Positions 11,143-56,203 of a stretch of DNA of 64,000 nt are shown one piece after another; position 1 is the first letter of the stretch; each line of letters begins with the position of its first letter. Location of the stretch: the NCBI GenBank assembly GCA_034440575.1, contig JAOTOL010001564.1, forward strand, positions 434,001 to 498,000, given 5' to 3'. Under the pieces are notes generated by a model, which was given only the letters and a program-made list of their open reading frames with translations, did no database searches and was not told the origin of the DNA. The stretch comes from Imbricaverruca yamaguchii (taxonomy: Eukaryota > Arthropoda > Thecostraca > Neoverrucidae). The position numbers and the translations under genes are program-made.

Positions 11143-11903
11143 CTGCTGCAGTATTCACGCCGTAATCACAAAGCGTACAAATACTTTATTGTTAGAATTG
11201 TGTTTTGCTTGAAATGCAGATGATATTATGCTGGTCAATGGCCGTGCAAGAGCAGCTTCAGAACCAGACAAACTCGTGACAAAAATGCCAAATCATGCCA
11301 ATCTATCCAGGGATGCATGTGGCAAAAATGTTATAATAGGTCACGGGGGATAGTGTCGTACACAATCACTGGAACGACTTGTATTTGCATTATGCATCAA
11401 AGTGAACGAGCACAATCGATTATGAATAATAAATGACCAAATGAAATAGGAATGACAATCAGTGCAGGTGGAGTGATCGGATTATCGATCGTATGAATTG
11501 GAATCGTTTGAACGTACAAGAGCATCGTTAGTGCATCAAGTCGCTTCCGCTAGAAGTATATGGCAGATGGCTGAGGATGATGGATTTCCAAAATGCTAGA
11601 AATGCTGTGCGATTTTCGATGCTGGAATTTTGATTCTTCGATCTTCATGTTATGCCTGATATTTTGTTACGTTTGAAACCTACCCTCTGCTAAATATCGC
11701 ATGCTCCCACCCAAATTCGTGCGGGAAGGTAGTTCCAAAATTTCCACGGAGTAAATGATATAATAGAGGCCACGGGTGTCGATTGGATGGTTTGGATCCA
11801 CATTTGTGCGGGAGACAGTCCATTGGCTAAGACTCCGATTCCACGAGCGTGTGGTAGCGGGCGGGAGCGTGAGTTGAACAAGTGCGGCCTGCTTTACAGA
11901 GCG

Positions 11904-12122
11904 ATGGCCGTCGACGAGGACGCGGTGGTGCGCGTGATCGGCCAGGTGGGCCGCTGGCAGGTGCACCAGTCGGTGCTGCTCTCGCTGGTCGGCGTGCTGT
12001 TCAGCTGGCAGGTGGTGGGCATCGTGTTCCTGGCGCCGCCCACCGACCACTGGTGTGCGCCGCCCGACCAGCACGCGGCCCGCCGGCAACGCGGCCCAGC
12101 CGAGCTGCCGCTGGAAATGCGG
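11904..12122 (+). CDS. SLC22 exon 1 (residues 1-73)
   Basis: Starts [20 protein letters not shown], the usual SLC22 cytoplasmic N-terminus, then helix 1 and DHWC at the start of the large extracellular loop. It ends ATGCGG|GTGGGT, the first of about 46 tandem copies of this junction. The phase-0 end fits exon 2. Confidence 0.85.
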
Positions 12123-15100
12123 GTGGGTGTGGTGCTGGGGCCCGCCCGCATCCCGAGCTGCCGCTGGAGATGCGGGTGGGTGTGCCGGTGGAGATGCGGG
12201 TGGGTGTGCCGCTGGAGATGCGGGTGGGTGTGCTGGTGGTGTGCGGCCGAGCTGCCGCTGGGGATGCGGGTGGGTGTGCTGGTGGTGTGCGGCCGAGCTG
12301 CCGCTGGAGATGCGGGTGGGTGTGCCGCTGGAGATGCGGGTGGGTGTGCCGCTGGAGATGCGGGTGGGTGTGCCGCTGGAGATGCGGGTGGGTGCTGCTG
12401 GAGATGCGGGTGGGTGTGCCGCTGGAGATGCGGGTGGGTGTGTGTGTGCGCGGCCGGCTGCCGCTGGAGATGCGGGTGGGTGTGCCGCTGGGGATGCGGG
12501 TGGGTGTGCCGCTGGAGATGCGGGTGGGTGTGCCGCTGGAGATGCGGGTGGGTGTGCCGCTGGAGATGCGGGTGGGTGTGCCGCTGGAGATGCGGGTGGG
12601 TGTGCCGCTGGAGATGCGGGTGGGTGTGCCGCTGGAGATGCGGGTGGGTGTGCTGCTGGAGATGCGGGTGGGTTTGCCGCTGGAGATGCGGGTGGGTGTG
12701 CCGCTGGAGATGCGGGTGGGTGTGCCGCTGGAGATGCGGGTGGGTGTGTTGGTAGTGTGCGGCCCGGCTAGGCTTCCTCTGGAGATGCGGGTGGGTGTGC
12801 CGGTGGAGATGCGGGTGGGTGTGCCGCTGGAGATGCGGGTGGGTGTGCCGCTGGAGATGCGGGTGGGTTTGCTGCTGGAGATGCGGGTGGGTGTGCCGCT
12901 GGAGATGCGGGTGGGTGTGCCGCTGGAGATGCGGGTGGGTGTGCCGCTGGAGATGCGGGTGGGTGTGTTGGTAGTGTGCGGCCCGGCTAGGCTTCCTCTG
13001 GAGATGCGGGTGGGTGTGCCGCTGGAGATGCGGGTGGGTGTGCCGCTGGAGATGCGGGTGGGTGTGCCGCTGGAGATGCGGGTGGGTGTGCTGGTAGGTG
13101 CGGGCGGGTCTGCCGCTGGAGATGCGGGTGGGTGTGCCGTGGAGATGCGGGTGGGTGTGCCGTGGGTGGGTTGCCGCTGGAGATGCGGGTGGGTGTGCCG
13201 CTGGAGATGTGGGTGCCGCTGGAGATGCGGGTGGGTGTGCCGCTGGAGATGCGGGTGGGTGTGTTGGTAGTGTGCGGCCCGGCTAGGCTTCCTCTGGAGA
13301 TGCGGGTGGGTGTGCCGGTGGAGATGCGGGTGGGTGTGCCGGTGGAGATGCGGGTGGGTGTGCCAGTGGAGATGCGGGTGGGTGTGCCGCTGGAGATGCG
13401 GGTGGGTGTGCCGCTTGTGTGCGGCCGCCTCTGGGAGGCTGTGGAGTGTGGAAGGCTGGTGGTCACCTCTTCGAATCCTTTTCTTTCTCGTATGCAGCAT
13501 AGGTATGTTGGCGCATGCCATTGCAGAATTCCGGATATTTGGCAACGTTCGTGCTTACATGCATTTTTCCGATGACTTTTTCCTCACAAATAAGTCTGAG
13601 CAAGATATCTTGTATGTAAACACACTTCATGCGGTTTCCACAATTTGCCAAATATCTGAGGATGTGTTTTGTTCACAGGACGGAGCCATGGTCAGATCTC
13701 AGTGTCGTGCCTATCTGAGGATGTGTTTTGTTCGCAGGACGGAAGTCATGGTCAGATCTCAATGTCGTGCCTATCTGAGGATTTACTGTGTTCACAAGAG
13801 GAGCCATGGTCAGATCTCAATGTCTTGCCTATCTGAGGATGTGTTTTGTTCACAGGACGGCCTGTCGATCTCAATGTCGTGCCTATCTGAGGATGTGTTT
13901 TGTTCACAGGACGGAGCCATGGTCAGATCTCAATGTCGTGCCTATCTGAGGATGTGTTTTGTTCGCAGGACGGAAGCCATGGTCAGATCTCAATGTCTGC
14001 TATCTGAGGATTTGTTCAGGGAGCCATGGTCAGATCTCAATGTCTTGCCTATCTGAGGATGTGTTTTGTTCACAGGACGGAACCATGGTCAGATCTCAAT
14101 GTCGTGCCTATCTGAGGATGTGTTTTGTTCACAGGACGGAGTCATGGTCAGATCTCAATGTCGTACCTACGACTGGCACACTGAAGCGGGCTTCTATCAA
14201 ACTAACGCCACCGTTCCGTGTACCAGATGGCAGTACGATACTTCTGAATACACCAGTAACATAATAATCGAGGTAAGACATGCAGTCCATTCGAACAGCT
14301 AATTTAAAAATCATATATGATGTAGTTCCATTTTGGAATTGCGTTCCGAAAGCATTAGAGCTCAAAAAGCAACAGTATGTTAGCTGCCGCCGGTAGCCCA
14401 GCCTGGATTTCCCTAAGGGGAGGGCCGATGAAAAAATGTGATGAACCAGAGAAAGCTTCCGGCACGCTTGGAAAATTTAGGTGAATTTTTTTGGTGAGGA
14501 AAGAATTATCGTCTTACATAGCGCATTTTGTGGATACTGAGAGAGGGGAGGGCTGTGCCGGACCCCCAGTTTTCCCTTGACTGCGTCCCAAAGGAACGTA
14601 TCTTCCAAAAAGCACTAAAGCCGTGGTCTACGGCTAAGTGGCCGCCTGTCGATTGGCTTCCAATATTCTCTGTCATTTTATAGCACGATTTTGTGATGAC
14701 AACCCGCGGTGGTCGCCTGATTTGGTCTGACGGCGGTGGCTGCAGCGCACATGCAAAATTTAATTTAGCTTGAACATTCGATATGCTCATCAGCACTCCC
14801 GCTTTGCCAACCACTACTCCATTAACCTCTTTGGCGTCAAGTATGCTGTTTGCATGCTCACACAATACTCCTTTCATTTGTGCAACCATGACCATCTCGC
14901 TAATCCCAAATCGTAGCGTCTATGCGTGCTGATTTTGGAATTCCACGGCAACTGACTTATGGGATTAACTGTGTTTTCAGTGGAATCTGGTGTGCAGCCG
15001 TAGCTGGCTGCAAGTTGTCGCCAAAAGCATCTACATGGTCGGCATCATGTTGGGCGTTATCGCCTGGGGCTTAATCGCTGACAGGTGAGATATCGTCGGT

Positions 15101-17793
15101 CAGTGCAGACCTGAGATCAACCGTCGATAGACGAGATTTCAGCGGTCACATTGGGATCTGGAACTTTAGAATACAGCTGACGCCGTCAGGTGAGATGACT
15201 CTCGCCTGGGAGGAGAGTTTGCCACAAAGACATGTGCGTGCAATGCGATTCGGTACGTGGGGACGAATAGTCTAGGGGTAAGTTACCAGTCTCACGATCG
15301 AAAAATTGGGGTTCGAGCCTCACCTGTTGCTACTCTTCACCCGCGGCCAATCGTCCTGAGAGATTAGCGACGCTACATGACTCAGCGGTCGACGTGTCGT
15401 AAAACCAACAACCACCAGTTCGGTATGCGTTGATAAAGTTATTGATCCAGCAGGTCAACACGTGGATGACCTTCCGTGGTGAGAAGTTGCCAATGTTACA
15501 TACCGCCATGCGACTGCAAGACTTTTGGAATGCGGAACTGGGCGCTAACGTTTCTGCAACAGGAACCAGCGCGATGTGATCAACAGTACCATTAGCAATG
15601 TTCTTAGAAACTCCTGATGCGAAGGGCGGCAGTTGCACTCTGACGGAGTAAATGCATTTATGCCTTTGCGATAACACTTGATTTCGGTGCGGTCCCCGAC
15701 AATAGGCTTTATCATGCATTCTTGTGAGGAGATATACGCGCATGTGTGTGCGTGACACACCCCGCGCTCGCCGATACATTTCCCGTGTATTCTCGATATT
15801 GCACTTGTGAACGTGCGGCTCATCTATCCAACGCATGCAGACTTGCGTGTTGCGTTGCGCGGACGCCGCGGCTTGTTGCCGGTGCAGAGCTGGACCTGTC
15901 CAGCTCTGCTCCAGACTGGTGCCCGTGGCCACAGGTTCGGGCGCCGGCCGGCCTTGCTGGCGTGCCTGGCGCTCAACTGCGTGTGCTGCACAGCCACCGC
16001 CGCCTCCACGTCAGTCGAGATGTTCCTCGTGCTGCGCTTCATGTCCGCTTTCTTCGGAGTCGGCATGTATACCACTGGATTCGTGATGTGTAAGTTCGTC
16101 AGGAGCAGGCGTTCCTGGTGTGATATTGACTCAGGCAACCGCTGTGTCAATAAACATTAGGCATGGATTTTACCATTGCATACACCTGGGTAGGAATTTG
16201 GCTAAATGTAGAGAGGATTAGCTGCCATATTTGAACCATCTGACGTGCATGGGAACAATCAAACTGGGCGTGCTTGTTATTACATGAAGGCGTACAACGT
16301 AGATGGAAAATCAATGAATACACCCTAATCTAATTGTAGTCAGTGTTGCACACAAGCCTCATCTCGGCTGATTCAGGAAACTAATGACAAACATAGAAAT
16401 AATCAAGCTAAACACACACATCCCACTTGCATGATTGCATGTACCTATAGCAACAGTGACCTAGCTAGTCATCAATTCATCAGTCAGGGTGGTCATTCTC
16501 AGTCAGGTCGCTCATTCTCAGTCAGTCAGTGCTCATTTTCTCCGTCGGTATGTTTCCATCGAATGAAAGGATTGTACGCTGAAATGTTAGCCTTATTCAC
16601 CATTTTCGTTTATCCTTCTCACCCATGGTACTGTAGTTGATGTTTTCCCGGAGTGAATGATGGCACTGCTACAGGTGCGACGTTCAATATCACGAAGTTT
16701 GCAGGGTCCGTGTCTGTCCAGTTCCCCGCCGCGTCCGTCGACTCTCCCGTTGTGGTGGACTTACCCGCACTCTCCCGCCTGCTAACACAGTGCTGCCGCC
16801 GTGTGAGGCACACAGAAACCGCCAATAGCCACGCCTCTACCTGCAATTGATCAGGCTTGTGCCTGACCAAGTGGGTCTGTCGCCGCTGCCTCGCGAAGTG
16901 CATTTGTGGCCGGCCACGATTCGCTCCGCTAACCAGCCACGTGTGTGATCGCGTTCAGAGGCCAGCCACTCGTGTCGTTGTGCGCCACGTCAACCCGCAC
17001 GTGTACCAACCCGACAGCCATGGAGCTGGCCGGCGACAGGTGGCGTGCGCTGCTGGGCATCACCTACTGCCTGCCGATTTCCTTCGGCTTCATGGCCGTC
17101 GGGGGTCTGGCCTTCCTCGTCAGGGGTTGGAGATGGTTCCAGCTGGCCACCGCCCTGCCCGGACTCGCGTTCGTCGCGTTCTACTGGTGAGCACGAGCGG
17201 CGAAATTCGGCCGATCATGTTGGCCTGTGAGCGGCACATCAGTGGGATGCACAACGTGATCTATCGAGTACTGAATCACACAGGAACTGCCTTGCCTGCC
17301 GCATCTTGCCTACCAGACACACGCTCATCTTCTGGTCCGGCGTGCAGTGTATGTCATGTGATGGCTTTCACGGCACTGATTACCATATGTGGATAGTAAG
17401 TTGAGGTTGAATGTGAAGGTTGGAGCGTGACCGCTGTGTTATGTGATGCCCGCTTCTGTGTGCCGTTACGGTGTTAATAATCCATGGTGTCTCTGCTTCC
17501 TTAGGCTTGTGCCAGAGTCACCGCGCTGGCTCCTGTCCAAGGGCAGAGTTTCTGAGGCTAGACCCATATTGGAGAGCATATGTAAATACAACGCTTGCTC
17601 GCCGCTGGAGAAATTCCCAGAAAGAGAGGTTGGCGACCTGCTGCAACGGATGTTCTTCATGTTTATTTGATTCGTTCAGACTGATACGATTGTTGCTCTA
17701 TTGTGTGGCGTGTTTTTTTATTTTGTGTTCACATCGTGATATCCATGTCCTGAATAATTGCCAACCTTCACCCGCATTGTGTTCCCCGTACCT

Positions 17794-17880
<87 letters not shown>

Positions 17881-20800
17881 CATATATATATATATATACG
17901 TAAATACTCGATAGTGTACATCCTTTCGCACATCACCTCTTCTTACATTCACGGAAATGTGCCCTGAAGGATAAACGAAGAAATCACAATCGAAAAGTTA
18001 AATCAGGATGCTTGCGAATATCCACAAAAAATTAGTTGCATATTTCGAATTGATACAGGTTTAAGCGAAGTTGAGAAACCGAATGAAGAAATGGCCGCAA
18101 AAACAGTTCGGATTGCTTTAAACAGACCTTTACAACATGACAATAAGTATATTGAAAGGTTCGAAATTCGAAGTACACCTTTCTACTGATTTATGTCTGT
18201 GTTTGGATGATTCCTTTGTAAACGAAATTGAAATATCACATAGTATTGTCTTCCTGAATGAATGTTCGCCCCTGGCACGTTGCTTAACAATCTGAAAGCA
18301 TTTCTGACGCTTCATAGATCTCGCAGCCGAAAGCCTACCCAGAACAAATAAATAATGTTCAACTAAAATGGGAGTTGACCTTGTGAGGTCAACTAAAATG
18401 GGAAGAACACCAATGCGCATTTTTCAAATGTCAGAAGCACTGAATGACTTCAAAAGACTCGAACAGATTCATGTTACGTGTGCTGTGCAACATAAGTAAA
18501 TGTTTGGACTTGGAGGTTTCTTATGCAGGTGTGAACGAATGCAAACGTAATTTTAAATGTGCGTCTAATTTGGCGCAACTGGCTGATGCCTTGGTTCTAA
18601 TACCGACTTTCAATCTATCGTACATTGTAATTTATCGGCAGCGTCATGCAATGCAGTCTAGGAATATGTGTGCTAATGTCAGTTGATCGTTTTTTCAACA
18701 TTCCTGTGGCGTGTTTCAGTATCTTCCAATGGCGGACCGACCGACTGAGAGCTTCTTCGAACTACTGCGCAGCGCTAAGACCACCATCATGCTGGCCAGC
18801 CTGTTCGTCTGCTGGTTCGTCAACAGCATGGTCTTCTACGGCATCGTGCTGCAAACTGGCGACTTCGGCGGCAACATATATATGAACACCACCCTGGGAG
18901 GTGCGTCACTACTCCCTCCTCCTCCACCCTCTCCAATGTTCGTGTTTGCCTAGTTGTCCAACGTTGACTGCTTGCTTTGAGAATGTTCTGAATTGAGAGT
19001 ATAAAAGATCCTTCTGTTTTTCTTCTGGTCTATATTGGAATACTGCAAGATCACTCTGTGTGGAGACATGTACGTCTTCAGGTACTAGATTAAGTGAACT
19101 CGTGAATTGTTCTGGCCCTGAAATCCTGTTCTCACATACAAATTCAAATTATCGGTATCCTGCAGGGACGTGTCATTGTTCGTAGGAAGTCGCGAGTCGA
19201 TTTGAAATAGTTTCTGCTGAGTTCTGTGATGCGAAATGGAACACTCCCGAGTACAAACATGTACTATTTACTGTGCATGACTTATGGTAAGTCAAACACG
19301 CATCGCTTAAAGTATTTGATTGTCAGCTGTTGCTGCAGGATGTGTCGATGTTCACAGGTGTCGGCGACCACAGGTTTCGGCGACCACAAGTGTCGGTAAC
19401 CACATCGGTCAGTGATCACATTGTCGCTGCCGCACCTGTTGGTGAACACAGCTGTAGGTGACCACAGCTCTTGGTCACAACGGTTATCGGTGACCATACC
19501 TATCGATGACCGCATATGTCGTCACCGAAGCTGTTGGTGACCATATCTGTCATTGACCACATCTGTCAGTGACCACAGGTGTGGCCACCGCAGCTGTCGG
19601 TGACCACAGCTATTGCCACCGCAGCTGTTGGTAACCATAAAAAGCTGTCGGTTGTTACAGCTGTTTCCACTACAGCTGTCGGTGACCACAGCTATCGGTG
19701 GCCACAGCTGTCGCCACTGCACCTTCTGGTGACCACAGCTATCAGTAACGACAGCTGTCGGTGACCACACTTGTCGCCATCGCAGCTGTCAGTGACCGAA
19801 ATATGTTGGTGACTATTGCTGCCAGCGAGGACGGCTGCGGTGAGCTCGCTGTCGGTGATTACGGATATCCCTGGCCTGCGCTTTTGCTGGCATACCGGAA
19901 ATACTAGGTTGGCGAGGAATTGGTAATGCAAAAATATCACTGATGCAATCTGGTTGTGTGTCTGGCCGCCCCAGGTGTAGTGGAGGTGCCAGCTCTGATC
20001 ATCTGCGCCTACGCCATCTACCGCCTGGGACGGCGAGCTCCCATCAGCCTCAACATGGTGGGCGCCGGGATGGCCGGTCTCCTCGCGTTCGCCTACAAAT
20101 CCGGTGAGTATGGAGAGCACCGGATACTTTACTCCACTGGTTGCAACTGAGCTCTTATGAAACGGTGCGCGGGTGTCCAGCAAGGTGCTTTATAAGTACG
20201 TTATTTTTATCCAGGAATATAGTTGCTTTATTCTTATTCAGGAATATAAGTGCTTTGTTCTTATTCAGGAATAACAACAAAGGAAGTAGGATACAGGAGA
20301 CAAATTATTTGCCTTAAGATTAGAACCCCAATTATCCACGTATTCCTATATCTTTTTCGCTATGCTTTTTCATCATTGACGTTCTGCATGGTGGCACACT
20401 GCAGAATCACATGTGCAGCAAACATATAAAGCCGGTCGATAATGAAACTCATCACGGGAGCTGGTGCTCTGTTCATCCCCACCCCCACCCTGTGGCGAAC
20501 CACACTAGGTGACTGCATCTACAACCATCCGGTGAGATATAGCCGGTTAGGGCGTTGAACTCTTGATCGTAAGATCGTGTGTTCGATCCCGCGGCCGGCG
20601 GGATTACCGAGCCCACACCCGTGACAAATCAGCGGCAGAGGTCTATCAGGTCTGGGAAGGGAATGCACCGTAAAACAACCCCGGGTTCTTCTTCCTCAAC
20701 TGACGGGACATCTTCGCCGGTGCCCGCCGGCTGTCCAGCAGGCGGCCACGCGCAGGACTGGCCGGTGACGTGTCTGGGCCTGCTCGGCCGGTTCTGCATC

Positions 20801-23800
20801 ACAGCTTCCTTCAGCACCATCTACGTCTACACGGCCGAGCTGTTCCCCACGTCTGTGCGCAACACGTGTCTGGCCTGCTGCTCGGTGGGCTCTCGCCTCG
20901 GCGGCATCCTGGCGCCGTTCGTCGCCATGCTGGTGAGCAGGATGCGCCATGCCGATGCTGCTGATGTCCCCCCGTGATGGTGAGTGCTATGGATGGTGAC
21001 GATGGGTAGGGCCGATAGTGAGCCATGGTGGCAAGTGCTGATGTGCGTCTACGATGTGTTCTCCGCATGTTTGTTGTTGTTTTAGTTATCGTGGTGTATG
21101 TGCATTGAAAATGACGCTGATATGGCTTCGCCCGTATCATTATTGCCGTGATTAAGAACTGGTACGAACTGGCCTCTGGTACGTCCATTTTATCTTGCTT
21201 GCGTATGTCAGCACTATTTTGTTTTTAAAGTTTGTGAGCACGCTATTGCTCAGTTACCTGGTCCTGAACCGTTGTATTAATATGTGTGCCTGTCAATCAG
21301 TGCTGCTTCGGGAGAGGTGTGGTACAGGTACACGTTTGTGAAGTATGTCGCCATGCCTTTATATATGTATATATATGTGCACATAAGCATATACATGCAT
21401 ATCTCTGCATCTTTGGAAAACAATTGTACAGACATGGTATGGACGAGTTAAGTTAAATTTTACACAAGGTAGTATTGAGTTATATTTCTTTATCATTCGC
21501 CTCCACCTTATTGCAAGACATTCTACAAGGAATCTAGGACTAGTTAGTTATTTGGGCTTAGGGGCGCTTCGACTGCTTCGGTCATACAGCGCCCAGGAAT
21601 CTAGGACTACTGCGCTCATGTTCAACATTGTATGATGTGGCAAGTGCAGGTGACAAAGCTAAGGCAGCTTAGCCACGTGCATGGATGGTGCAGCAAGATA
21701 TTGGTGGAAATGATGGTGTCCGACAAAGCCCTTTCACCGCAGTTGTTAATCCCTGCCTAGCTGCGTAAGTTCTAAGAACGGTGAGCATAGCTAGGTGTGG
21801 TAGGACATTCCATCACCCTGCCATGTACAATAATCGTATGCCCTTTTTCGGCGTATGACAAAGAACAGTAGTCTGGTAGCAACTACTTTGTGCATGCTTG
21901 TCTCCCAATAATCAGTGTAGGAGAATGGCAACATTATGTGAACTCTGCTGTCGACACGACGTAAATAATAATAAGGTAAGTTGGACTTCTTAGTCCAACT
22001 TACCTGTGATGCGTAATAACAAGTCATTGCACATTCATGTATCTTTCCATTTCTGTTCATCTATTTCTGAGCCGCTGACTTTTATCACACATTTGCTGAT
22101 AAATATAAGGAATTGTGTAAGCGCATTTTGACGGGTTTGGTATGAATCTTAACTATATTTACAGCTGTATATAGCATTCCGTAGCTACATGTATAATTGG
22201 AATATACCTGTTCAGAACCACGAAGGATGGATATAACCGTAAAGCACATGACCGTTGCATTTTGTCCCCATTCCCTGTCCGCTGGTAATTAATTATCAGC
22301 CGGCCACCACGGCTGATATGATAACTATGAGATATTGCAGAATGTGCAGACAGGGAGGCCGGTGGGGCGGAACGGGGTGGAACGGGGTGGAACGAGATGA
22401 GTGGCAGTGCGGGTGCGATTGCCTGTCATCCTGAACCAACTTAAACCGGAATTGGTGTATCGATCACGCTTGCCATCCGTCGAAGTGACGCGTGCTTCCC
22501 ACCGTCACTGTCCTCGCACCGCGCTTCCGCCTGAACGATGGCTGATAACATGTGTACTGCACTGTACATTGTACGGTGGATAAGTCAGAATCACTTCCTA
22601 ACTCGCCCGATCGGATTGTCAGAGTTCGCAGCTCCGTACAACCCTAAACATTAATTCAACAAAAGTGGCGGAACAGCACGCAAGTGTCGTTCATCGTTTA
22701 ACTACTCGTTCCTCGTTGCTCAAGCGTGTTTTGAAGACGGGCGTATAACTTGTTGAAATATGCATACGCTTCGAAGCCAACATGAATTACTAAACTGTTA
22801 CCAACATCTGGTATTAGTCTGCATTGCGCATACTTGGTGATATCTACACAAAGTTGTCGTTATGCATGCTTACTCTGTCACAAATCAAAACGTAGTTGGA
22901 ATCATTCCAGGGCAAATTGGCGGAGTCGAGGACAAATCTGCAAATACCTATAGATTTTGGTGATTCGGTCTTCATTAAGATAGCATAGCCTTCGTTTGTA
23001 ACCTTTTTCGAGTTATAGAGAGGAAATCGAATTCGCACAGTTTCGCGTCGGACGCCGGACACTGTGACTGCGCGTGCTGTTGAGCCCGCGTGCTGTTGAG
23101 CCCGCGTGTTGTTAAGACATAAAAGACATAAAGACATAAAAGATTAGTGCAACTATGAGCCACAAGGGCCCTTCTTGGTTGCACTCTGTACATTCAGTCA
23201 GTTGCCCACCAAATCTGGCAATCAGCCCTCCCTGTAATACTGTAAAGCAAGCTCTCCATTCTTATAATGATTGTCTTTGCTGTTTTTAAAGATGTTCAAT
23301 GTGCTGCTACTGACAATGGCTTCTGGCAGCTGGTTCCAGTGTTCTACTACCCTATTGATGAAGAAAGTCTGTCTTAACCTTGTTCTGCTGTGGTTAACTT
23401 TAATTTTGAATTGATGATCTCTACTTGCATCATTTCTGTTAAATTCAAACATTTCCCCAAGGTATCCCCTCTCCAGACCATGGACAAATTTAAAGACCTC
23501 GATGAGATCTCCTCTCAGCCTTCTATATCTAAGTGCAAACATATTAAATTTCTTCAATCTTTCCTCAAATGCCAGGTTGCTTATACCATTAACCATTTGT
23601 GTAGCCCTCTTTTATACTCTCTCTAAAAGCCAACAATCTTTTTCATAGCTAGGAGACCAATCTTGGATGCAGTATTCAAAATGTGGCCTGACATATGCAC
23701 AGTAAAGCTTCCTGATGACTTCCTCACTTCTGTATGATACATTCCTATTTATTGCCCCAAGCATTGTCAGTGCCTTCTTCCTGGCTTTCTTGGTCTGTTC

Positions 23801-25960
23801 TGATGCCCCCAATTTTGTGTTTAGAATAATACCTAAATCCTTCTCCTGTTGAGTCACTCATGATAGCACTTGGCCACCCATCAATTATGGAGCCTTCATA
23901 TGCCGCTTACCTACATGCATGATTTTGCACTTATCAAAATTAAATTTCATTTGCCATTCTTCGGACCACTTCACAGGTTCGTCTAAGTCTTTTTGCAGCG
24001 AGATATGCTAATTTTGACCTGTTATTGCCCTAAAGACCTTCAAATCATCCGCAAATTTTACAACGTTACTGCTTTGGCCACTTTCAATGTTATTTGCAAA
24101 TATATTGAACAGTAGTGGCCCCAGTACTGACCCCTGGGGGACTCCACTAAGAACATTTTACCATGATGGCTTTGTACCATTTAGCATCACTCTTTGCTCT
24201 CTACCTGAAAGCCACAACTCTATCCATTTTAAGATGCTACCTGCAATACCATGGGCCTGAAGCTGTATCATTAACCGTTTATGGGGTACCTTGTCAAAGG
24301 CCTTACTAAAGTCAATATATGCTACATCAACCTGATTTCCCTGATCAAATTGTACTGTGGCGAAGTTAAAAAATTTCAGGAGATTTGTGAGACACGATCG
24401 TCCTTTTCTAAACCCATGTTGAGCATCTTGAATCAATTTGTTTCCTTCCAGATAACTAACTATTCTATCCTTGATAATTTATTCCAGTACCTTGCAGACT
24501 ATGGATGTGAGACTTACTGGCCTATAGTTTTCAACTTCCCCTCTTTTTCCTTTCTTGAAAATAGGAACTACATTTGCCATTTTCCAATCTGTTGGAATTT
24601 CATTTTGTGAAACTGATCTAAAAAATGTTATACTAAGTGGAAATACCAGTTCCTTTTCAGCTTTCCGCATTACCCTAGCACAAATTTCCTCAGGTCCTGC
24701 TGCCTTGTTTGGCTTTATTTTCCTGATATAATTTAAAACAACATCACTATCAATGAAATCAACATCATTTGTCAGACCCCATGTCACAACTATGGTGTAC
24801 GGTCGGCAGATTGGTCATATCTTCCAATGTAAACACTGATTTAAACTGCTTGATCAGCTCCTCAACCATCTCACAATCCTCACCCAATGTAGTCCGATTT
24901 ACTTCCAGTGGACCAATTGTGCTAGAAACTTTTCTCAGCTTGTAGAAACTAAAGAACTTCTTACTGTCCCCATTACAGTTCCTATGTAAATCCAGTTCTT
25001 TTGCTCTCTTTGCTGCTGTTTTTTTTTGCTTCACAGTGTCTCTTGCTTTTCGATACGCCTTTAGATTTGCGATATTTGAAGCTTCTTTAAACACTCTAAA
25101 TGCAGCTTTCTTAGCCTTAATTTCTTTTATCAAGTCTGGTGTAAGCCATGCTGGCTTTCCTAACCTTCTTTTGCGTCTTTGCTTTTGGGGGACATATCTA
25201 ATCTGCTGAGCCCGCGTGCTGTTGAGTCCGCGTGCTGTTGATCACGCTTGCTGTTGAGCCCGCGTGCTGTTCAGCTGTTCGGCTGACATCAGCGCTGTCG
25301 CCAGCGCGACGCTGTCCACCCGGCCGTGCCGGCGCTGCTGTTCGGAGGATCAGCCGTCGCCTCTGGACTCAGTATCCTGCTGCTGCCAGAGACTGCCAAC
25401 GCCCCCCTGCCGGGCGTCATAGCAGACATGGGTGCCGCGGCCCGCCGCCAGAGTGTCGGGTACGTGGACGCCAGGACTGGACCAACGCGCTGGCGTGCTC
25501 TGTGGCCACTTTGTCAGCGATGCACTGAAGTGCAGTCCGTTGTACATGCGCGTAAGGGTCATGGCTGTTAATCGATAGAGCGATTCGAAGTAGTCCCTTC
25601 ATCGCCTTGGGTGAATATACTCGGTAGTGTGGGAAGATGCTTGGCAACACAATATACACCCTCATAAAGCGCACGGCTTCGTGATACTTTGATAATAATT
25701 TTGGGTTGAAGCGCAACTGTAACCCTATTCTCATGAACTACTAAGCGTTGCAAACCTCTGATAATGAAACACACAAACATTTATGTCACAAACAAGACAG
25801 GTATTTCACATTTTGATGTTATCCAGTAGAAATCAAGTAACTAATTGTATGAGTGTCATTTCATTGCATTGCCCGTTGCTCCTATTCATGTCATCTGATG
25901 TCTTCCTTTCCTCCCTACAGGAGTGATGAGAGTCTTCCTACAGAACCGGTTGTTGTGTGA
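11904..25960 (+). CDS. SLC22-type organic ion transporter, 11 exons, 538 residues
   Basis: Predicted polyspecific organic cation/anion or carnitine transporter of the SLC22 family (major facilitator superfamily, 12 membrane helices, plasma membrane). Exons: 11904-12122, 14135-14272, 14981-15084, 15935-16089, 17018-17186, 17505-17628, 18720-18900, 19975-20103, 20742-20932, 25293-25459, 25921-25960. All junctions are GT-AG and phase-compatible, totalling 1617 nt. Family landmarks: first helix about 21-44; large extracellular loop with glycosylation site NAT (97-99) and [15 protein letters not shown] before WNLVC (about 102-124); MFS motif GLIADRFGRR (149-158); PESPRWLL (265-272); [11 protein letters not shown] before helix 8; [17 protein letters not shown] (436-447); LLLPET near the C-terminus. 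Length is typical of the family. The substrate cannot be told from sequence. The ATG at 11904 was chosen because it fits the family N-terminus and follows an acceptor-like CTTTACAG, although the frame is open upstream to 11787. Weakest points are the exon 6 donor (GAG|GTTGGC) and the exon 10 acceptor. Confidence 0.88.
12105..13420. repeat. 24-bp minisatellite made of the exon 1 splice donor
   Basis: About 46 copies of a 24-bp unit with core GAGATGCGGGTGGGTGTG. Every good copy repeats the last bases of exon 1 (ATGCGG) plus the intron start (GTGGGTGTG). A longer variant containing GTGCGGCCCGGCTAGG recurs near 12747, 12966 and 13259, so the array has higher-order structure. Because 24 is a multiple of 3, long repeat ORFs (PLEMRVGV on the plus strand, His/Pro-rich on the minus) appear; I regard them as artefacts. 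Unit spacing is irregular at places (first interval 53 bp), so only some donors, such as 12123 and 12270, are in phase with exon 2. Confidence 0.95.
13655..14170. repeat. 59-bp minisatellite made of the exon 2 splice acceptor
   Basis: About nine copies of a unit near 59 bp, each with a pyrimidine-rich TGTTTTGTTCACAG acceptor followed by GACGGAGCCATGGTCAG. The copies are degenerate: the third has lost the AG (ACAAGAG) and the seventh is shortened. The last copy (AG at 14133-14134) joins exon 2 in phase. 59 is not a multiple of 3, so neighbouring acceptors give different phases. Confidence 0.93.
14135..14272 (+). CDS. SLC22 exon 2 (residues 74-119)
   Basis: 46 codons in phase 0 at both ends. 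Encodes the rest of the extracellular loop with the sequon NAT and the family-typical [20 protein letters not shown] just before helix 2. Its first bases are the repeat unit of the acceptor array. Donor GAG|GTAAGA. Confidence 0.9.
14981..15084 (+). CDS. SLC22 exon 3 (residues 120-154)
   Basis: After GTGTTTTCAG the frame reads [11 protein letters not shown], the hallmark entry to helix 2 in SLC22, then the helix and GLIAD. Donor ACAG|GTGAGA splits the arginine codon of the MFS motif. Confidence 0.93.
15259..15420 (+). mobile_element. tRNA-derived SINE in intron 3
   Basis: A-box-like TAGTCTAGGGGTAAG and a B box GGGTTCGAGCCTC lie in a tRNA-like head. This is followed by a body ending in CGTCGTAAAACCAACAACC, like the tails of the SINEs near 20700 and 57490. 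It overlaps a long antisense ORF (15932-15330) that I do not consider a gene. Confidence 0.65.
15935..16089 (+). CDS. SLC22 exon 4 (residues 154-206)
   Basis: Completes the arginine of GLIADRFGRR and encodes helices 3 and 4 ([18 protein letters not shown]). Acceptor GCCACAG, donor ATGT|GTAAGT, phase 1. Confidence 0.92.
17018..17186 (+). CDS. SLC22 exon 5 (residues 206-262)
   Basis: Begins in [14 protein letters not shown], matching the conserved E-x-x-G-x-x-W/R-R segment before helix 5, and runs through helices 5 and 6 to FVAFYW. Acceptor CCGACAG, donor TACTG|GTGAGC splitting a Trp codon. Confidence 0.92.
17505..17628 (+). CDS. SLC22 exon 6 (residues 262-303)
   Basis: Encodes [14 protein letters not shown], the SLC22 signature opening the large cytoplasmic loop, and a charged linker. 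Acceptor CTTCCTTAG is good. The donor GAG|GTTGGC is weak but is the only one giving the phase 0 needed by exon 7; the frame otherwise stays open about 40 bases before TGA. Confidence 0.75.
17793..17900. repeat. (AC)n-(AT)n microsatellite in intron 6
   Basis: A short CACACA run passes into about 75 bp of pure AT and then impure TA-rich sequence. Tyr/Ile repeat ORFs here are artefacts. Confidence 0.96.
18720..18900 (+). CDS. SLC22 exon 7 (residues 304-364)
   Basis: Encodes the end of the cytoplasmic loop and helix 7 with [14 protein letters not shown] and [13 protein letters not shown], a conserved SLC22 block. Acceptor GTGTTTCAG, donor GGAG|GTGCGT, phase 1. Confidence 0.93.
19346..19860. repeat. 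Degenerate minisatellite in intron 7
   Basis: About 500 bp of imperfect tandem copies around the core TCGGTGACCACAGCTG, with variants such as TTGCCACCGCAGCTG. Units vary in length, so this is an old, mutated array. Short ORFs on both strands reflect the repeat. Confidence 0.85.
19975..20103 (+). CDS. SLC22 exon 8 (residues 364-407)
   Basis: Encodes helix 8 ([15 protein letters not shown]) and the second MFS loop motif RLGRR, then helix 9. Acceptor GCCGCCCCAG, donor TCCG|GTGAGT, phase 1. Confidence 0.93.
20531..20700 (+). mobile_element. tRNA-derived SINE in intron 8
   Basis: tRNA-like head (GCCGGTTAGGGCGTTGAAC, then B box GTGTTCGATCCC) and a body ending in CGTAAAACAACCCC and a C/T-rich tail (GGGTTCTTCTTCCTC). 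The body and tail resemble the 57303-57490 copy. The tail ends about 40 bp before the exon 9 acceptor and may supply part of its pyrimidine tract. Confidence 0.7.
20742..20932 (+). CDS. SLC22 exon 9 (residues 407-470)
   Basis: Encodes helices 10 and 11 with [17 protein letters not shown] and [11 protein letters not shown], among the most conserved SLC22 segments. Acceptor CTGTCCAGCAG, donor ATGCTG|GTGAGC, phase 0. Confidence 0.94.
20933..23069. other. First part of SLC22 intron 9
   Basis: AT-rich intronic sequence without gene features apart from a short TA-rich patch (about 21358-21405) and a small local duplication of GGAATCTAGGACTA near 21530 and 21596. Confidence 0.6.
23070..23112. repeat. 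Left remnant of a 16-bp minisatellite split by a LINE
   Basis: Nearly three copies of the 16-bp unit CGCGTGCTGTTGAGCC. The same unit reappears at 25206-25275 on the far side of the LINE. Confidence 0.9.
23113..25205 (-). mobile_element. 5'-truncated, decayed CR1/jockey-type LINE
   Basis: Minus-strand fragments in order (from 25205 down) match the reverse-transcriptase half of a non-LTR retrotransposon ORF2. They include [17 protein letters not shown] (linker after the endonuclease), [69 protein letters not shown] (catalytic FADD box near 24060), KDLGIILN and [16 protein letters not shown]. The endonuclease is missing and the frame is broken by stops and shifts (for example a stop just before SGVPQGS), so it is inactive. 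The 3' end carries short repeats of TTTATGTC, as non-LTR elements often do. The family within the CR1/jockey group is uncertain. Confidence 0.92.
23222..25133 (-). pseudogene. Reverse transcriptase remnant of the intron 9 LINE
   Basis: Five or six frame segments (25133-24765, 24787-24479, 24436-24158, about 24157-23860, 23857-23612, 23596-23222) together cover the linker, palm and C-terminal region of the reverse transcriptase. Palm aspartates of FSKAFD and FADD are retained, but no continuous ORF remains. Confidence 0.88.
25206..25275. repeat. Right part of the 16-bp minisatellite, next to the exon 10 acceptor
   Basis: Four to five copies of CGCGTGCTGTTGAGCC variants. The last copy reads GTGCTGTTCAG and the array ends about 15 bp before the chosen acceptor (AG at 25291-25292). 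Confidence 0.85.
25293..25459 (+). CDS. SLC22 exon 10 (residues 471-526)
   Basis: Encodes helix 12 ([19 protein letters not shown]) and the conserved [16 protein letters not shown] tail. Two acceptors are possible in the same phase: ACATCAG ending at 25292 and CGCCAG ending at 25304. The donor GTCGG|GTACGT leaves phase 2, matching the tiny last exon. Confidence 0.85.
25921..25960 (+). CDS. SLC22 exon 11 (C-terminus, residues 526-538)
   Basis: After TTTCCTCCCTACAG the phase completes a glycine, then reads [12 protein letters not shown] and TGA at 25958-25960. The hydrophobic C-terminus could be a PDZ ligand, as several SLC22 proteins have, but this is inference. If intron 10 were retained the protein would instead run about 36 residues to a stop near 25569. 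Confidence 0.7.
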
Positions 25961-27676
25961 AGATTGAGCCTTGTTTCACTATGCTGAAGGCTCACCTGCA
26001 TAAGATGATCAATCATCATTCACTGATGTCATACTGAACAAAGCATCTTAGATACGTAGTCCTTAGTGAGTGCTCGAATAGCAGTTCCCATGCGCATCAT
26101 TTGGCTGTTCATATTTGCAAGTTCACAGGTAACCATGTGCTTCTGGTATTCAAAGTTAGCATTGTCATATTGTTATACGTCATATTGTCATACGTGATTG
26201 ACAAAATATTGACGTATATATGCACAATACAGGTATTCTTCACTCATTGTGGTAGGTTAGCTGGTGTTTTGAATGGCAAGAATCACTTGGAAAGACCTGC
26301 CAGATTAAATGTCACATATAGGACGAAGGTGACTCTTAGTGACAGTTCTTAGAGCACCGTGCAATATATTAATGCTGCTTCCGCACTGCGTGCAACGTTG
26401 CATTATTTCCCGAAGCCTACATGTTCATCCTTTCATTGCATAAATGGCGATATTGAGCAAGAAAGATGATGTCGTTGAACATCGACGTGTTGTGTGTATG
26501 TGTATATATCTTGCATCATGTGTAAGTGTCGAGGCTCTGCATGTGTTTAACAATAAATTGCTGAAGTAATTAATGAGCGGATACTTGTATTCAGCACTAA
26601 CGATATTAGTTCTAAAACCGACTGAAATAATGACTCGGTATCGCAATAGCACGCTTTTTGCATACATGTCAATTACGCCAATGCTATTACACATACGTGA
26701 ATACCTTTGGCTAATACCCCTGTCTTTGTCATGTGATAACTAAATTTATCAGTATTTTCAATGCTACGTCCACACAAATCCCTTCAATCTGACTCAGGAA
26801 TCAAGGAGACAAGTGAGCTAGATAATTCGTATCATATGCGTTCCCCAGCTCCTCGGTTACCTCAGTGACAAGTGAAGGAGCTCAAAACATGGCAGGGTTG
26901 GGCAAGGATAGCCAGTTGATTTGTGGATAATGCGAGCCACCGTTGTTACGTTAGCGTGTACAGATCTTAACGTTCATGGACAAACCACTGAAGATAGTAT
27001 TGGGTGTCATGGGTACCGTGTGGCCTTTTATCTAGCACTTTCCTTTCAACCCCACATCATCAAGCAGTACACATACCCTGACTGTCGTCGTCATCTGTGT
27101 TTTGCACGTATTGCGATGTTCACGTATTTGTCACAGGTAGCTCCGAAATAGACACAGACAGTAGTCATCTGTGTATTTCCTCCTGCGGAACGTATATCCA
27201 AGGATGTCAATTGCCGATGATCGATACTGCGGTGCATCAGCAGACGCAACGTCGTTTTAGTCAACGAGGTGTATGTTGGTGTCTAGTTTCGGCGGCGTGC
27301 TGACTATCGCTGTAAAGACGAGCCAGGTGGTTGGTGGCGCCACTGCCAGGCAGGCGCGGCGCGCTTAGTTAACCGGAACGATCCCGTAGGATGACACACC
27401 TGTGGCGAAGCAGCCGGCTGTCGGGTTGGGCGGTGGCTGCGCAGATTCGGCACCAAAGTGAGGCCGGACAACATACCAGAGCAGGCTATCTCTTAATTAG
27501 TTCAACGTGTTTGGTCAGCAGCTCAATGCAGTTTTGTGTATTTGCGCATATATACGCCTTCACTTTGCCGCGCACCCCACTTTAAATCTCGAAGACGAAA
27601 CTGAACTTGATATCGGGGTGTGATCTTGATATTTGATTGACATCTGAAGCGGTTGCTTCCTCCAGTCGGTACGGCG
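25961..27676. other. 3' flank of SLC22; no supported gene
   Basis: Probably 3' untranslated sequence followed by intergenic DNA. Short ORFs only, without motifs. A GC-rich patch at 27290-27480 shows nothing recognisable. Confidence 0.5.
26552..26557 (+). promoter_or_regulatory. Candidate polyadenylation signal for the SLC22 gene
   Basis: AATAAA lies about 590 bp after the predicted stop, the first canonical hexamer downstream that I found. No transcript end is visible, so the assignment is tentative. Confidence 0.3.
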
Positions 27677-28280
27677 TTGGTTTACGTGAATGCGGTTAGT
27701 GTTGGTTTATGTGAGCTGGGTTAGAGTGCTGGCTTATGTCAGTGTGCTTAGTGTTGGTTTATGTGGGTGTGGTTACATTGTTGGTTTAAGTGTGTGTAGT
27801 TTGAGAGTATTTATTTATGTGATTGATGTGCACGGCGTGGTTTTTGTTGGTTTATGTAAGTGTGGTTAGTGTTGGTTTATATGAATGCAGTGATAGTGTT
27901 GGTTTATGTGAGTGTGGTTAGAGTGTTTGTCTATGTGAGTGCGGTTATAGTGTTGGTTTATGTGGGAGCGGTTATAGTGTTGGTTTATGTGAGTGTAGTA
28001 AGAGTGTTGGTTTACGTGAGTGTGGCTAGAGTGTTTGTTTATGTGAGTGCGGTTATAGTTTTGGTTTATGTGCGAGCGGTTATAGTGTTGGTTTACGTGA
28101 GTGTGGCTAGAGTGTTTGTTTATATGAGTGCGGTTATGGTGTTTGTTTATGTGCGTGTGGTTATAGTTTTGGTTTATGTGAGAGCGGTTATAGTGTTGGT
28201 TTATGTGAGCGTAGTAAGAGTCTTGGTTTATGTGAGTGTGGCTGGAGTGTTGAACTATATGAGTGCGGTCATGGTGTCGA
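27677..28280. repeat. 27-bp minisatellite, open in frame
   Basis: More than 20 imperfect copies of a unit near 27 bp with core GGTTTATGTGAGTGTGGTTA. Because 27 is divisible by 3, the plus strand stays open as a Val/Tyr-rich repeat (27860-28294) and the minus strand as a His/Asn-rich repeat (28426-27866). Both are explained by the array and I do not call them genes. Confidence 0.93.
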
Positions 28281-34257: not shown

Positions 34258-53457
<19,200 letters not shown>

Positions 53458-55536
53458 GCCCGCCGGGTCCGGTCATTCTGGCCGACCGTGCCCTGACCGA
53501 CTGGCGGCCGGGCCCGGCCCACCCATGACCAGCGACGAGACGCAACCCATTGATTCATCAATATTTAATCAATCTCAGTCTGGCCGCCGCCGGCCGTCTG
53601 ATGGAGCCGCGCGTTCAGCCAGACGGGAATTTAATTACGGCCGAGTCGACGTGGTCCCAGCTACAGACGGTGCGACGCTTCCCGGTTGTTCTGGCAGTTG
53701 TGTGACTCAGAAGCGCTTGAGGAAGTGAGTGGAATGTAGATCGCAGAGCTACCGTGGCTGATCTGAGCTACCGTACTTCCCTCGGGACGCACGTTGTGTT
53801 GAATGTAATGCATAGTGTCTTCAGTGAGCACGGTGCAAGGAGACACTGACGTAGCTGAGCGGCTGAGAGCAGGACAGACTACAGGGTCTCCGTACTGTAG
53901 CCACAGACACCATGCCGATATCGGCAGGGGATGGCAGTGGCCCAGGCGACATCTCGTGCCATCAATATATCAGTACATTGTGTTTGGAGTTGCGCTGCAA
54001 AGCCCTCTTTGAAGAAAGTAATGCGAATGTTTTCAGCATGATGTGTTAACAACAGCAAGCAACGATTGGAACTTATACAACGGCACTCATTCGCAGTGTA
54101 GAAATTAGGAAGTCGAACCTAAACGATATGCTCAATCGAGGATGCTTTCTTTATTTGGCCCGGGCTTCGCCGTCGCTCGCAACGATGTTGGTACATTGCC
54201 GACATTACTATGTAAAACACAATGTTGTGCCATCAACATTTGACAAAGCCACACCGGGTTGATATTCACGTTACTACCGTTTGCCAGATTAAGAACCCCG
54301 CTTTTCCTGCAGCACCGGCAGCTGGAAGTGCCACGTGGTGTCGCCACTCTGCCCCGCTAGGTTGTGACGAGGAAATCGGAAACATGATAAACCAAAGATC
54401 ATGACCGTCATGTCGTACGTCGCGCACAGTGATGTCACGACTGCCGCCTCCCAATATGTTTTCCCATCTGATGTTGATACGTATGTTATGTAGCTAATGT
54501 AGATGAAGACGTACGGTCGTAAAATGCATAACTGATCTCTGCGTCCGCTCAGGAGCCAAGTGATACTATTTTCCTTGTTGGACACGCCGGATGGGTACCT
54601 TGAAGTACAACCGATATCCTAACACTTGTTTGCAACCACTACCATGTTAATTGACCGGCTGGGCTTTTGATTATTTGTAAATCAGTACGACGTGACAGGA
54701 AGTGATTTATAAGGTGCGTACGCACTGCCGCATACGATCCCATCAAGTTATCAAGGGAGAAATCTCGCTTTAACGTTCCGCCATGCGAACAATCATGGCT
54801 TCAACGACTGCGTGGTGGAAGGGGAATGTCTGAATAAACAGATCATAATTCTGAAAGTCAATGCGTTGGCATTCGACATGATGCCATAAACAACGGGTAA
54901 TGCTCAATGAATGCAAAAATGTGTCGAAAAAAAACGACTGTGAAAAACTGAAAATCAAGCAATGAAGCACAAACTGAAAATCAAGCACCGACGGAGAGAA
55001 TGTAGTTCTGGAAGGATACATTGCTAGCTGGTAGGAGACACCACATAATTGTGTTTGGTTCATTATATACCGCATTGACTGGGAAAGGGGTGCTTGTTAT
55101 TTGGATCAGTTTGTGGGAAACCATGCACGCATTCCATGGCTACCTTCCTACATAGTAAGTCTGTAAGTTACATTGCTACCCTTCTACATTTGAACACCAT
55201 CTAGGTTGTTATCGGCGCTCTAAGCAGTCAACGGCACTCTTCAAACCGTTCACTCTTCCAAAGAACTGAGATGTGCGCTAAATCGGGTGATGTTTTGCCT
55301 TATAATCTGAGCGTGTAAGTCCCAGATTGCTCGGTAGGTGGGCCAATCCTGTACAGCATTCATTGCGCCTGAAAACGCAACCTGAAGTAAAATCAGATGT
55401 ATCGCCGATCGTGGGCTGTGGCCAAGGATGGTGCAGTGCAGTGTCAGCAAAGCGAAGGCACGGAAAAAAACATATTAATGCTCATTATCCTGCACAATAA
55501 ACCTAACGACGTCGTAAGCAGTCGGCGCCCGGCTGC
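53458..55536. other. Upstream flank of the acidic-protein gene
   Basis: After the GC-rich block (to about 53720), AT-rich intergenic DNA with no supported gene. Confidence 0.5.
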
Positions 55537-56028
55537 GGAGGACTCAGTCGGCACACCGCATCGCCACACCATGGGATGCCACTCCACCGGGCCGCCACGT
55601 CACGGCGCGGACGCCAACGGAGGACTCAGTCGGCACACCGCATCGCCACACCATGGGATGCCGCTCCACCGGGCCGCCACGTCACGGCGCGGACGCCAAC
55701 GGAGGACTCAGTCGGCACACCGCATCGCCACACCATGGGATGCCGCTCCACCGGGCCGCCACGTCACGGCGCGGACCCCAACGAAGGACTCAGTCGGCAC
55801 ACCGCATCGCCACACCATGGGATGCCACTCCACCGGGCCGCCACGTCACGGCGCGGACGCCGACGAAGGACTCAGTCGGCACACCGCATCGCCACACCAT
55901 GGGATGCCGCTCCACCGGGCCGCCACGTCACGGCGCGGACGCCAACGGAGGACTCAGTCGGCACACCACATCGCCACACCATGGGATGCCACTCCACCGG
56001 GCCGCCACGTCACGGCTCGGACACCAAC
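55537..56028. repeat. 82-bp minisatellite, six copies, open in all plus frames
   Basis: Units start at 55537, 55619, 55701, 55783, 55865 and 55947, each beginning GGAGGACTCAGTCGGCACAC or a close variant. Copies are over 90% alike. 82 is one more than a multiple of 3, so each frame cycles through all three translations of the unit, and none has a stop. This yields three overlapping plus-strand ORFs (164-243 codons) that are array artefacts. Confidence 0.96.
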
Positions 56029-56203
56029 GAAGTCTTTACGACAGCCGGCCAGGGGCCGATCCGTCGACTTTGCACCCCTGTTGTCACAATATTTGCAGAC
56101 GGATTTCAAAACTTCGTATTGTCTGTGATGCCCTATTCAATTTGTGACAACGTCGCGGGATTTCATTACAGTATCGCTGCGATGTGATGAGATAGCGAGA
56201 ATG

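Follow-up and report, generated by a model that had tools for sequence, protein, structure and literature searches.

The closest described counterparts of the locus reported here are the amphioxus "mirages," minisatellite-like copies that lie across splice junctions in Adh3 (Canestro 2002, as cited in PMC3087553) and in the globins BflGb6 and BflGb9 (PMC3087553). The lancelet genes PGBD5 and troponin C have been added to these cases of junction arrays, PGBD5 having two arrays at neighbouring exons (PMC3902484). These reports give copy numbers of 2 to 7 and describe regular splicing as undisturbed by the mirages (PMC3087553, PMC3902484). In humans, intron 18 of ABCA7 contains a VNTR with a 25-bp unit that opens with the GT of the exon 18 donor; it is reported that canonical splicing occurs at the first GT, that an additional isoform retains one unit and is out of frame, and that array length alters splicing (PMC5954066). 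Tandem duplication has also been linked to the origin of introns, both in a model by Rogers (via PMC3087553) and in the potato RdRp gene (PMC4974935), and repeats at exon-intron boundaries have been tied to intron change in human duplicated genes (PMC2812944). Among the literature matches listed, the titles and opening lines of abstracts mention neither a double array in a single intron nor an example from barnacles, which is weak evidence. Here we analyze a 64-kb window (the whole stretch of DNA under study, 64,000 nucleotides) with an SLC22 gene whose first coding intron carries such an array at each end.

Results

Gene model and relatives

The gene model comprises ten exons on the plus strand (11904 to 25571) and encodes a predicted SLC22 organic cation transporter of 558 aa. 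The family had been named in a first-pass annotation made from the letters of the window, and the assignment was borne out by a relationship across most of the product's length together with an MFS domain: the solved structures of OCT1, OCT2, and SLC22A3 match it over most of its length (PDB; E values of 1e-70 to 1e-77), and Sugar_tr and MFS_1 were recovered above the Pfam cut-offs. The five best matches of the product among the best 120 of 1,653 are barnacle proteins, the nearest listed being 63 to 65% identical. Amphibalanus amphitrite P0001 is the lead match among those listed (63% identity over 93% of the product), and Pollicipes pollicipes P0002, also among the matches listed, has 65% identity over 73%. 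Over 416 residues these two proteins share 73% identity with each other, compared with 63 to 65% to the window's product, suggesting that the window derives from a relative that is more distant or evolves faster, or that the gene is a paralogue.

All nine introns of the model are GT...AG when coding exons 1 and 2 are joined 12122|14135 (Table 1). An acceptor-like CTTTACAG lies upstream of coding exon 1 at 11892-11899, within the longer TGCTTTACAG (11890-11903) directly 5' of the start codon; the first coding exon may therefore be the second exon of the transcript, with a non-coding exon upstream. Because the acceptor-like CTTTACAG hints at such an exon, "intron 1" here denotes the first coding intron, 12123-14134.

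Table 1. Coordinates of the SLC22 exons, the intron 1 arrays, and the candidate founder hexamers in the 64-kb window
Feature	Position	Strand	Description and basis
Coding exon 1 of SLC22	11904..12122	+	End is the first (predicted functional) donor, LEMR|; gene model, alignment, Pfam, PDB SLC22 matches
Exonic GCGGCC	12091..12096	+	Candidate left microhomology of the donor-array founder duplication
5' array	12108..13426	+	46 units carrying ATG[CT]GG|GTG, mostly 24 bp, eight of 42-53 bp plus a terminal unit
GCGGCC, inner end of 5' array	13421..13426	+	Candidate right microhomology of the founder
Spacer between arrays	13427..13652	+	~226 bp of intron, by TRF ends
3' array	13653..14169	+	9 units, 49-60 bp long, made of a pyrimidine-rich stretch, AG, and ~33 nt of exon-2 start
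Coding exon 2 of SLC22	14135..14272	+	Start is the last acceptor; gene model, alignment
Coding exons 3-10 of SLC22	14981..25571 (span)	+	Gene model; C-terminal end less sure

The two arrays

The first-pass annotation had described intron 1 as beginning in about 46 copies of its own donor and ending in about nine copies of its own acceptor, with about 230 bp between them, and on all three counts the description held. In the 5' array, 46 units match ATG[CT]GGGTG, the first at 12117, and the exact site CGG|GTGGGT is present in 45 of them; in the 3' array, CAG|GACGG is found in seven of nine units and is absent from units 3 and 7. The two arrays were recovered by TRF as 12159-13415 (period 24, 52.3 copies, 81% matches, score 1620) and 13653-14169 (score 792), and the distance between them agrees with the annotated one. 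At both ends of the intron the units span exon and intron across the splice junction, as in the mirages. The annotation had given one unit length per array, 24 and 59 bp, but the units are not all equal: the spacing of donor units is 24 bp in 33 of 46 cases and 18 to 53 bp in the rest (the last, 44 bp, being measured to an arbitrary end), the eight long units and the terminal one are scattered through the array, and acceptor units vary over the range given in Table 1.

Only the first donor-array unit comprises the end of exon 1 and the start of the intron; the remaining units, each carrying ~15 nt of exon sequence, lie inside the intron. Lengths that are not divisible by three occur among the units of both arrays (53, 46, 22, 23, and 38 bp in the donor array; 59, 58, and 49 bp in the acceptor array), which argues that coding constraint is absent inside them. 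The 24-bp unit can be read as PLEMRVGV, and we considered a coding minisatellite; this was rejected, since the first and second units start 53 bp apart, the frame is lost immediately, and stop codons come next.

Predicted U1 pairing of the array donor is the strongest among the nine modelled donors of the gene, at -12.6 kcal/mol in each of three donor copies computed, the first and last included. Given that 45 of 46 donors have the same nine-base site and that pairing is equal in these three copies, site strength does not pick among the donors. RNA folding was tried as a selector of the first donor and set aside as weak, the openness of this donor in local folds ranking 3rd to 5th of 46 depending on the size of the folded segment. 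Between 13427 and 14134 no GT reaches a U1 pairing of -8 kcal/mol, which leaves the spacer and the acceptor array without an obvious additional exon.

Several copies of the exon-2 start in 13653-14134 encode two alanines at positions that are V and T in the present exon. These alanines agree with Pollicipes (DGAEAKSQCLAF) and disagree with Amphibalanus, and because of this disagreement the possibility that the acceptor array preserves an older state of exon 2 is only a hint.

Reading frame and the predicted functional splice pair

Alignment and frame both predict that the functional splice uses the first donor (12122) with the last acceptor (14135). The proteins P0001 (HELRDGERVKSQC) and P0002 (LELRDGAEAKSQC) align without gaps across the 12122|14135 join of the window's product, and this agreement with the two closest listed, orthologue-like proteins predicts the authentic junction at these two positions. 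Against this placement, the same alignment shows ~18 extra residues upstream in coding exon 1 of P0001 and P0002, gaps close to the join in P0003, P0004, and P0115, which are less closely related barnacle proteins, and no coverage of the region in P0005. The alignment, together with the nine GT...AG introns of the model, agrees with the earlier prediction that the junctions themselves lie within the repeat units.

With the last acceptor, 2 of 46 donors are in frame; of the 18 AGs considered around the acceptor position in the nine units, 1 is in frame with the first donor. Of the 828 possible donor/AG pairings, 10 read in frame to the natural C-terminus and 818 do not; among the 10, 12122/14135 alone has no inserted residues. 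A count over fewer pairs gave 6 of 414 in frame, with the site assumed for unit 3 not located at an AG. Joining the innermost pair gives a product that terminates within the donor array. These counts indicate that the copies are not interchangeable.

Inner copies lie between the two outer sites, within the intron, and would leave with it. We infer that cells use the outermost pair. Possible choosers of the outer sites include exon definition by the real exon bodies, transcription order, and the GGG runs past the first donor. GGG runs boost upstream donors in other animals. Proximity rules would favour the inner sites, and this counts against use of the outermost pair.

Other features of the window

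A third set of repeated splice-like signals within the SLC22 gene is found in intron 8, where a 27-bp array of 3.1 copies (20191-20273) has a unit with an acceptor-like TTATTCAG|GAA; the modelled acceptor is at 20741. In intron 9, two small arrays of the 16-bp unit CTGTTGAGCCCGCGTG (23071-23113 and 25203-25275) flank minus-strand ORFs, one of which has an RVT_1 match above the Pfam cut-off (PF00078, 9.5e-12), an arrangement that resembles the insertion of a retrotransposon into a minisatellite directly upstream of the last modelled exon. Downstream of the gene are arrays of a 27-bp unit whose consensus includes a donor-like TATGTGAGTG (27676-28277), a TC-rich simple repeat of ~1 kb (37678-38663), and six copies of an 82-bp unit with 96% matches (55536-56029), the most homogeneous long-unit array in the TRF list of the window. 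When ten ORFs, taken from a longer ranked list and from intron 9, were compared to Pfam, only RVT_1 was above the cut-off and HJURP_mid fell below it; arrays outside the SLC22 gene could therefore not be tied to exons. Searches for structured RNA gave no Rfam match at gathering thresholds and no tRNA by ARAGORN.

Discussion

Proposed origin and tolerance of the arrays

The locus is most probably the outcome of two separate tandem duplications, each of which spanned a splice junction and was later expanded, and both of which were tolerated since the outermost sites still work. In this reading, a single short tandem duplication that by chance covered a junction would have founded each array. For the donor array the founder was perhaps a duplication between the exonic GCGGCC and the intronic GCGGCC now at the inner end of the array (Table 1). 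Six more copies of this hexamer occur in long units within the array, which is consistent with a founder unit of the long form, duplicated between two GCGGCC, from which the 24-bp form would be derived; GCGGCC is also present at 11884 and 12075, so the hexamer is not unique to the array edges. For the acceptor array the founder duplication would have arisen between exon-2 and intron sequence having little beyond TA in common. Slippage or unequal exchange could then have multiplied the copies inwards, with the shorter 24-bp form coming to dominate the donor array. These founding and expansion steps are reconstructed from the present repeats; block duplications of 219 bp at 98% and of 114 bp at 98% (231 bp apart) suggest later tandem-repeat turnover in both arrays.

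The gene would survive because splicing uses the first donor and the last acceptor, which are still joined to the real exon bodies, and the other copies exit with the intron. The extra copies look like tolerated decoys of the sort known in lancelets and humans. Such arrays need not be harmless, as shown by the effect of array length on splicing in ABCA7.

Chance and a possible border process

The first-pass annotation had regarded arrays at both ends of one intron as hard to attribute to chance alone. We evaluated this with a null test on the 18 junctions of one gene and 18 arrays hand-picked from the TRF output (period of at least 9, overlapping rows merged), with founders placed at random. 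Under this model the probability that at least one of the 18 arrays spans a junction of the SLC22 gene is 0.166, and that two or more do so is 0.011; for both ends of one intron it is ~0.0009 per window, or ~1 per 1,100 such windows. The both-ends value is 0.0008 when the gene span and nine arrays are used and 0.07 when whole arrays are placed, and the double array was itself selected from a scan for what stood out. Several hundred megabases of genome contain windows like this one by the thousand. At ~0.0009 per window, a handful of introns with double arrays would be expected genome-wide without a special process, an estimate that comes from one window and one gene. The arrangement is thus unusual, as the annotation had it, but a process specific to exon-intron borders is not needed to account for it.

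A lineage-specific mutational process at exon-intron borders, such as transcription-linked R-loops or breaks near bound U1/U2, would make junction arrays common in this lineage, and we consider it improbable. It would fit the low random-founder probability for both ends of one intron, the several junction arrays described in the available reports on amphioxus, and the composition of intron 1, which has a GC skew of +0.40 and 4.9 GGG runs per 100 nt, compared with 0.09 to 1.25 in the other eight introns, although the array itself supplies much of this signal. It sits poorly with the distribution of arrays in the window: 16 of the 18 modelled SLC22 junctions lie outside arrays, and 16 of the 18 window arrays counted are not at a junction, SLC22 junctions alone being considered.

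Possible re-splicing, redundancy, and assembly artefact

Tolerance might also have another basis, which we hold to be improbable: the intron could be nested and self-correcting, in that a splice between inner copies leaves the true outer pair in the product, and removal is completed by repeated re-splicing. With the true donor at the far left of all copies and the true acceptor at the far right, an inner splice would be a step and not a dead end. If true, this would explain why a second array was tolerated at the other end of the intron and would predict that double arrays are commoner than chance. The exon junction complex is reported to repress such re-splicing in Drosophila (PMC8184009), and this counts against repeated re-splicing here unless the outer donor is beyond its reach.

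The first-pass annotation had also raised selection for splice-site redundancy, in which many donors and acceptors secure the removal of the intron or make isoforms. The exact donor site kept in all but one of the 46 donors would accord with this, as would the 12 core columns ATGCGGGTGGGT, which are invariant (0 of 516 bases) in 43 well-aligned 24-mers while the other 12 columns have 17 substitutions; the invariant core is possibly a hint of selection on the site. Those 17 substitutions amount to 7 distinct changes, and decayed units at 13207 and ~13098, outside both the 43-unit count and the search rule, break the core, which weakens this reading of the donor core. Redundancy would further call for alternative copies that give usable in-frame products, and the frame counts for donors, AGs, and pairs given above speak against this; two acceptor units also lack CAG|GACGG. 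The redundancy raised in the annotation is accordingly not supported, and we judge it very improbable. Least credible is an assembly artefact in which the assembler expanded or mis-joined the arrays: a 219-bp block repeated at 98% is typical of assembler duplication, but in both arrays the units differ from each other in length and in sequence, and short forms are mixed with long ones; the precise number of copies could nonetheless be off.

Comparison with known systems

The locus is a natural test of splice-site choice, in which 45 donors with the same site face nine acceptor units and the frame names the necessary winner, and it would add a crustacean to the chordate examples of junction-spanning minisatellites cited above. 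Should double arrays turn out to be frequent in barnacles, this would point to a bias in where minisatellites arise or are tolerated.

The comparisons that follow draw on the available parts of the reports cited at the outset. The Rogers model and potato RdRp share with this locus the multiplication of splice signals by tandem duplication, but there new introns are formed from duplicated exonic sequence, whereas the present locus shows the lengthening of an intron already in place and does not imply a new one. ABCA7 likewise has a donor-carrying tandem array in an intron; it is confined to the donor end with a unit that begins at the GT, whereas both ends are affected here and the donor unit includes exon sequence. 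The amphioxus mirages are the most similar in having tandem copies over donors or acceptors, many of their units with AG/GT, but they are from a chordate, have 2 to 7 copies, and are described without statement of arrays at both ends of one intron, whereas the present locus has 46 and 9 copies at the two ends of one intron in a barnacle relative. Single-junction arrays, at a donor or at an acceptor, are already published, and the present locus differs in its lineage, in its copy number, and in having arrays at the two ends of the same intron.
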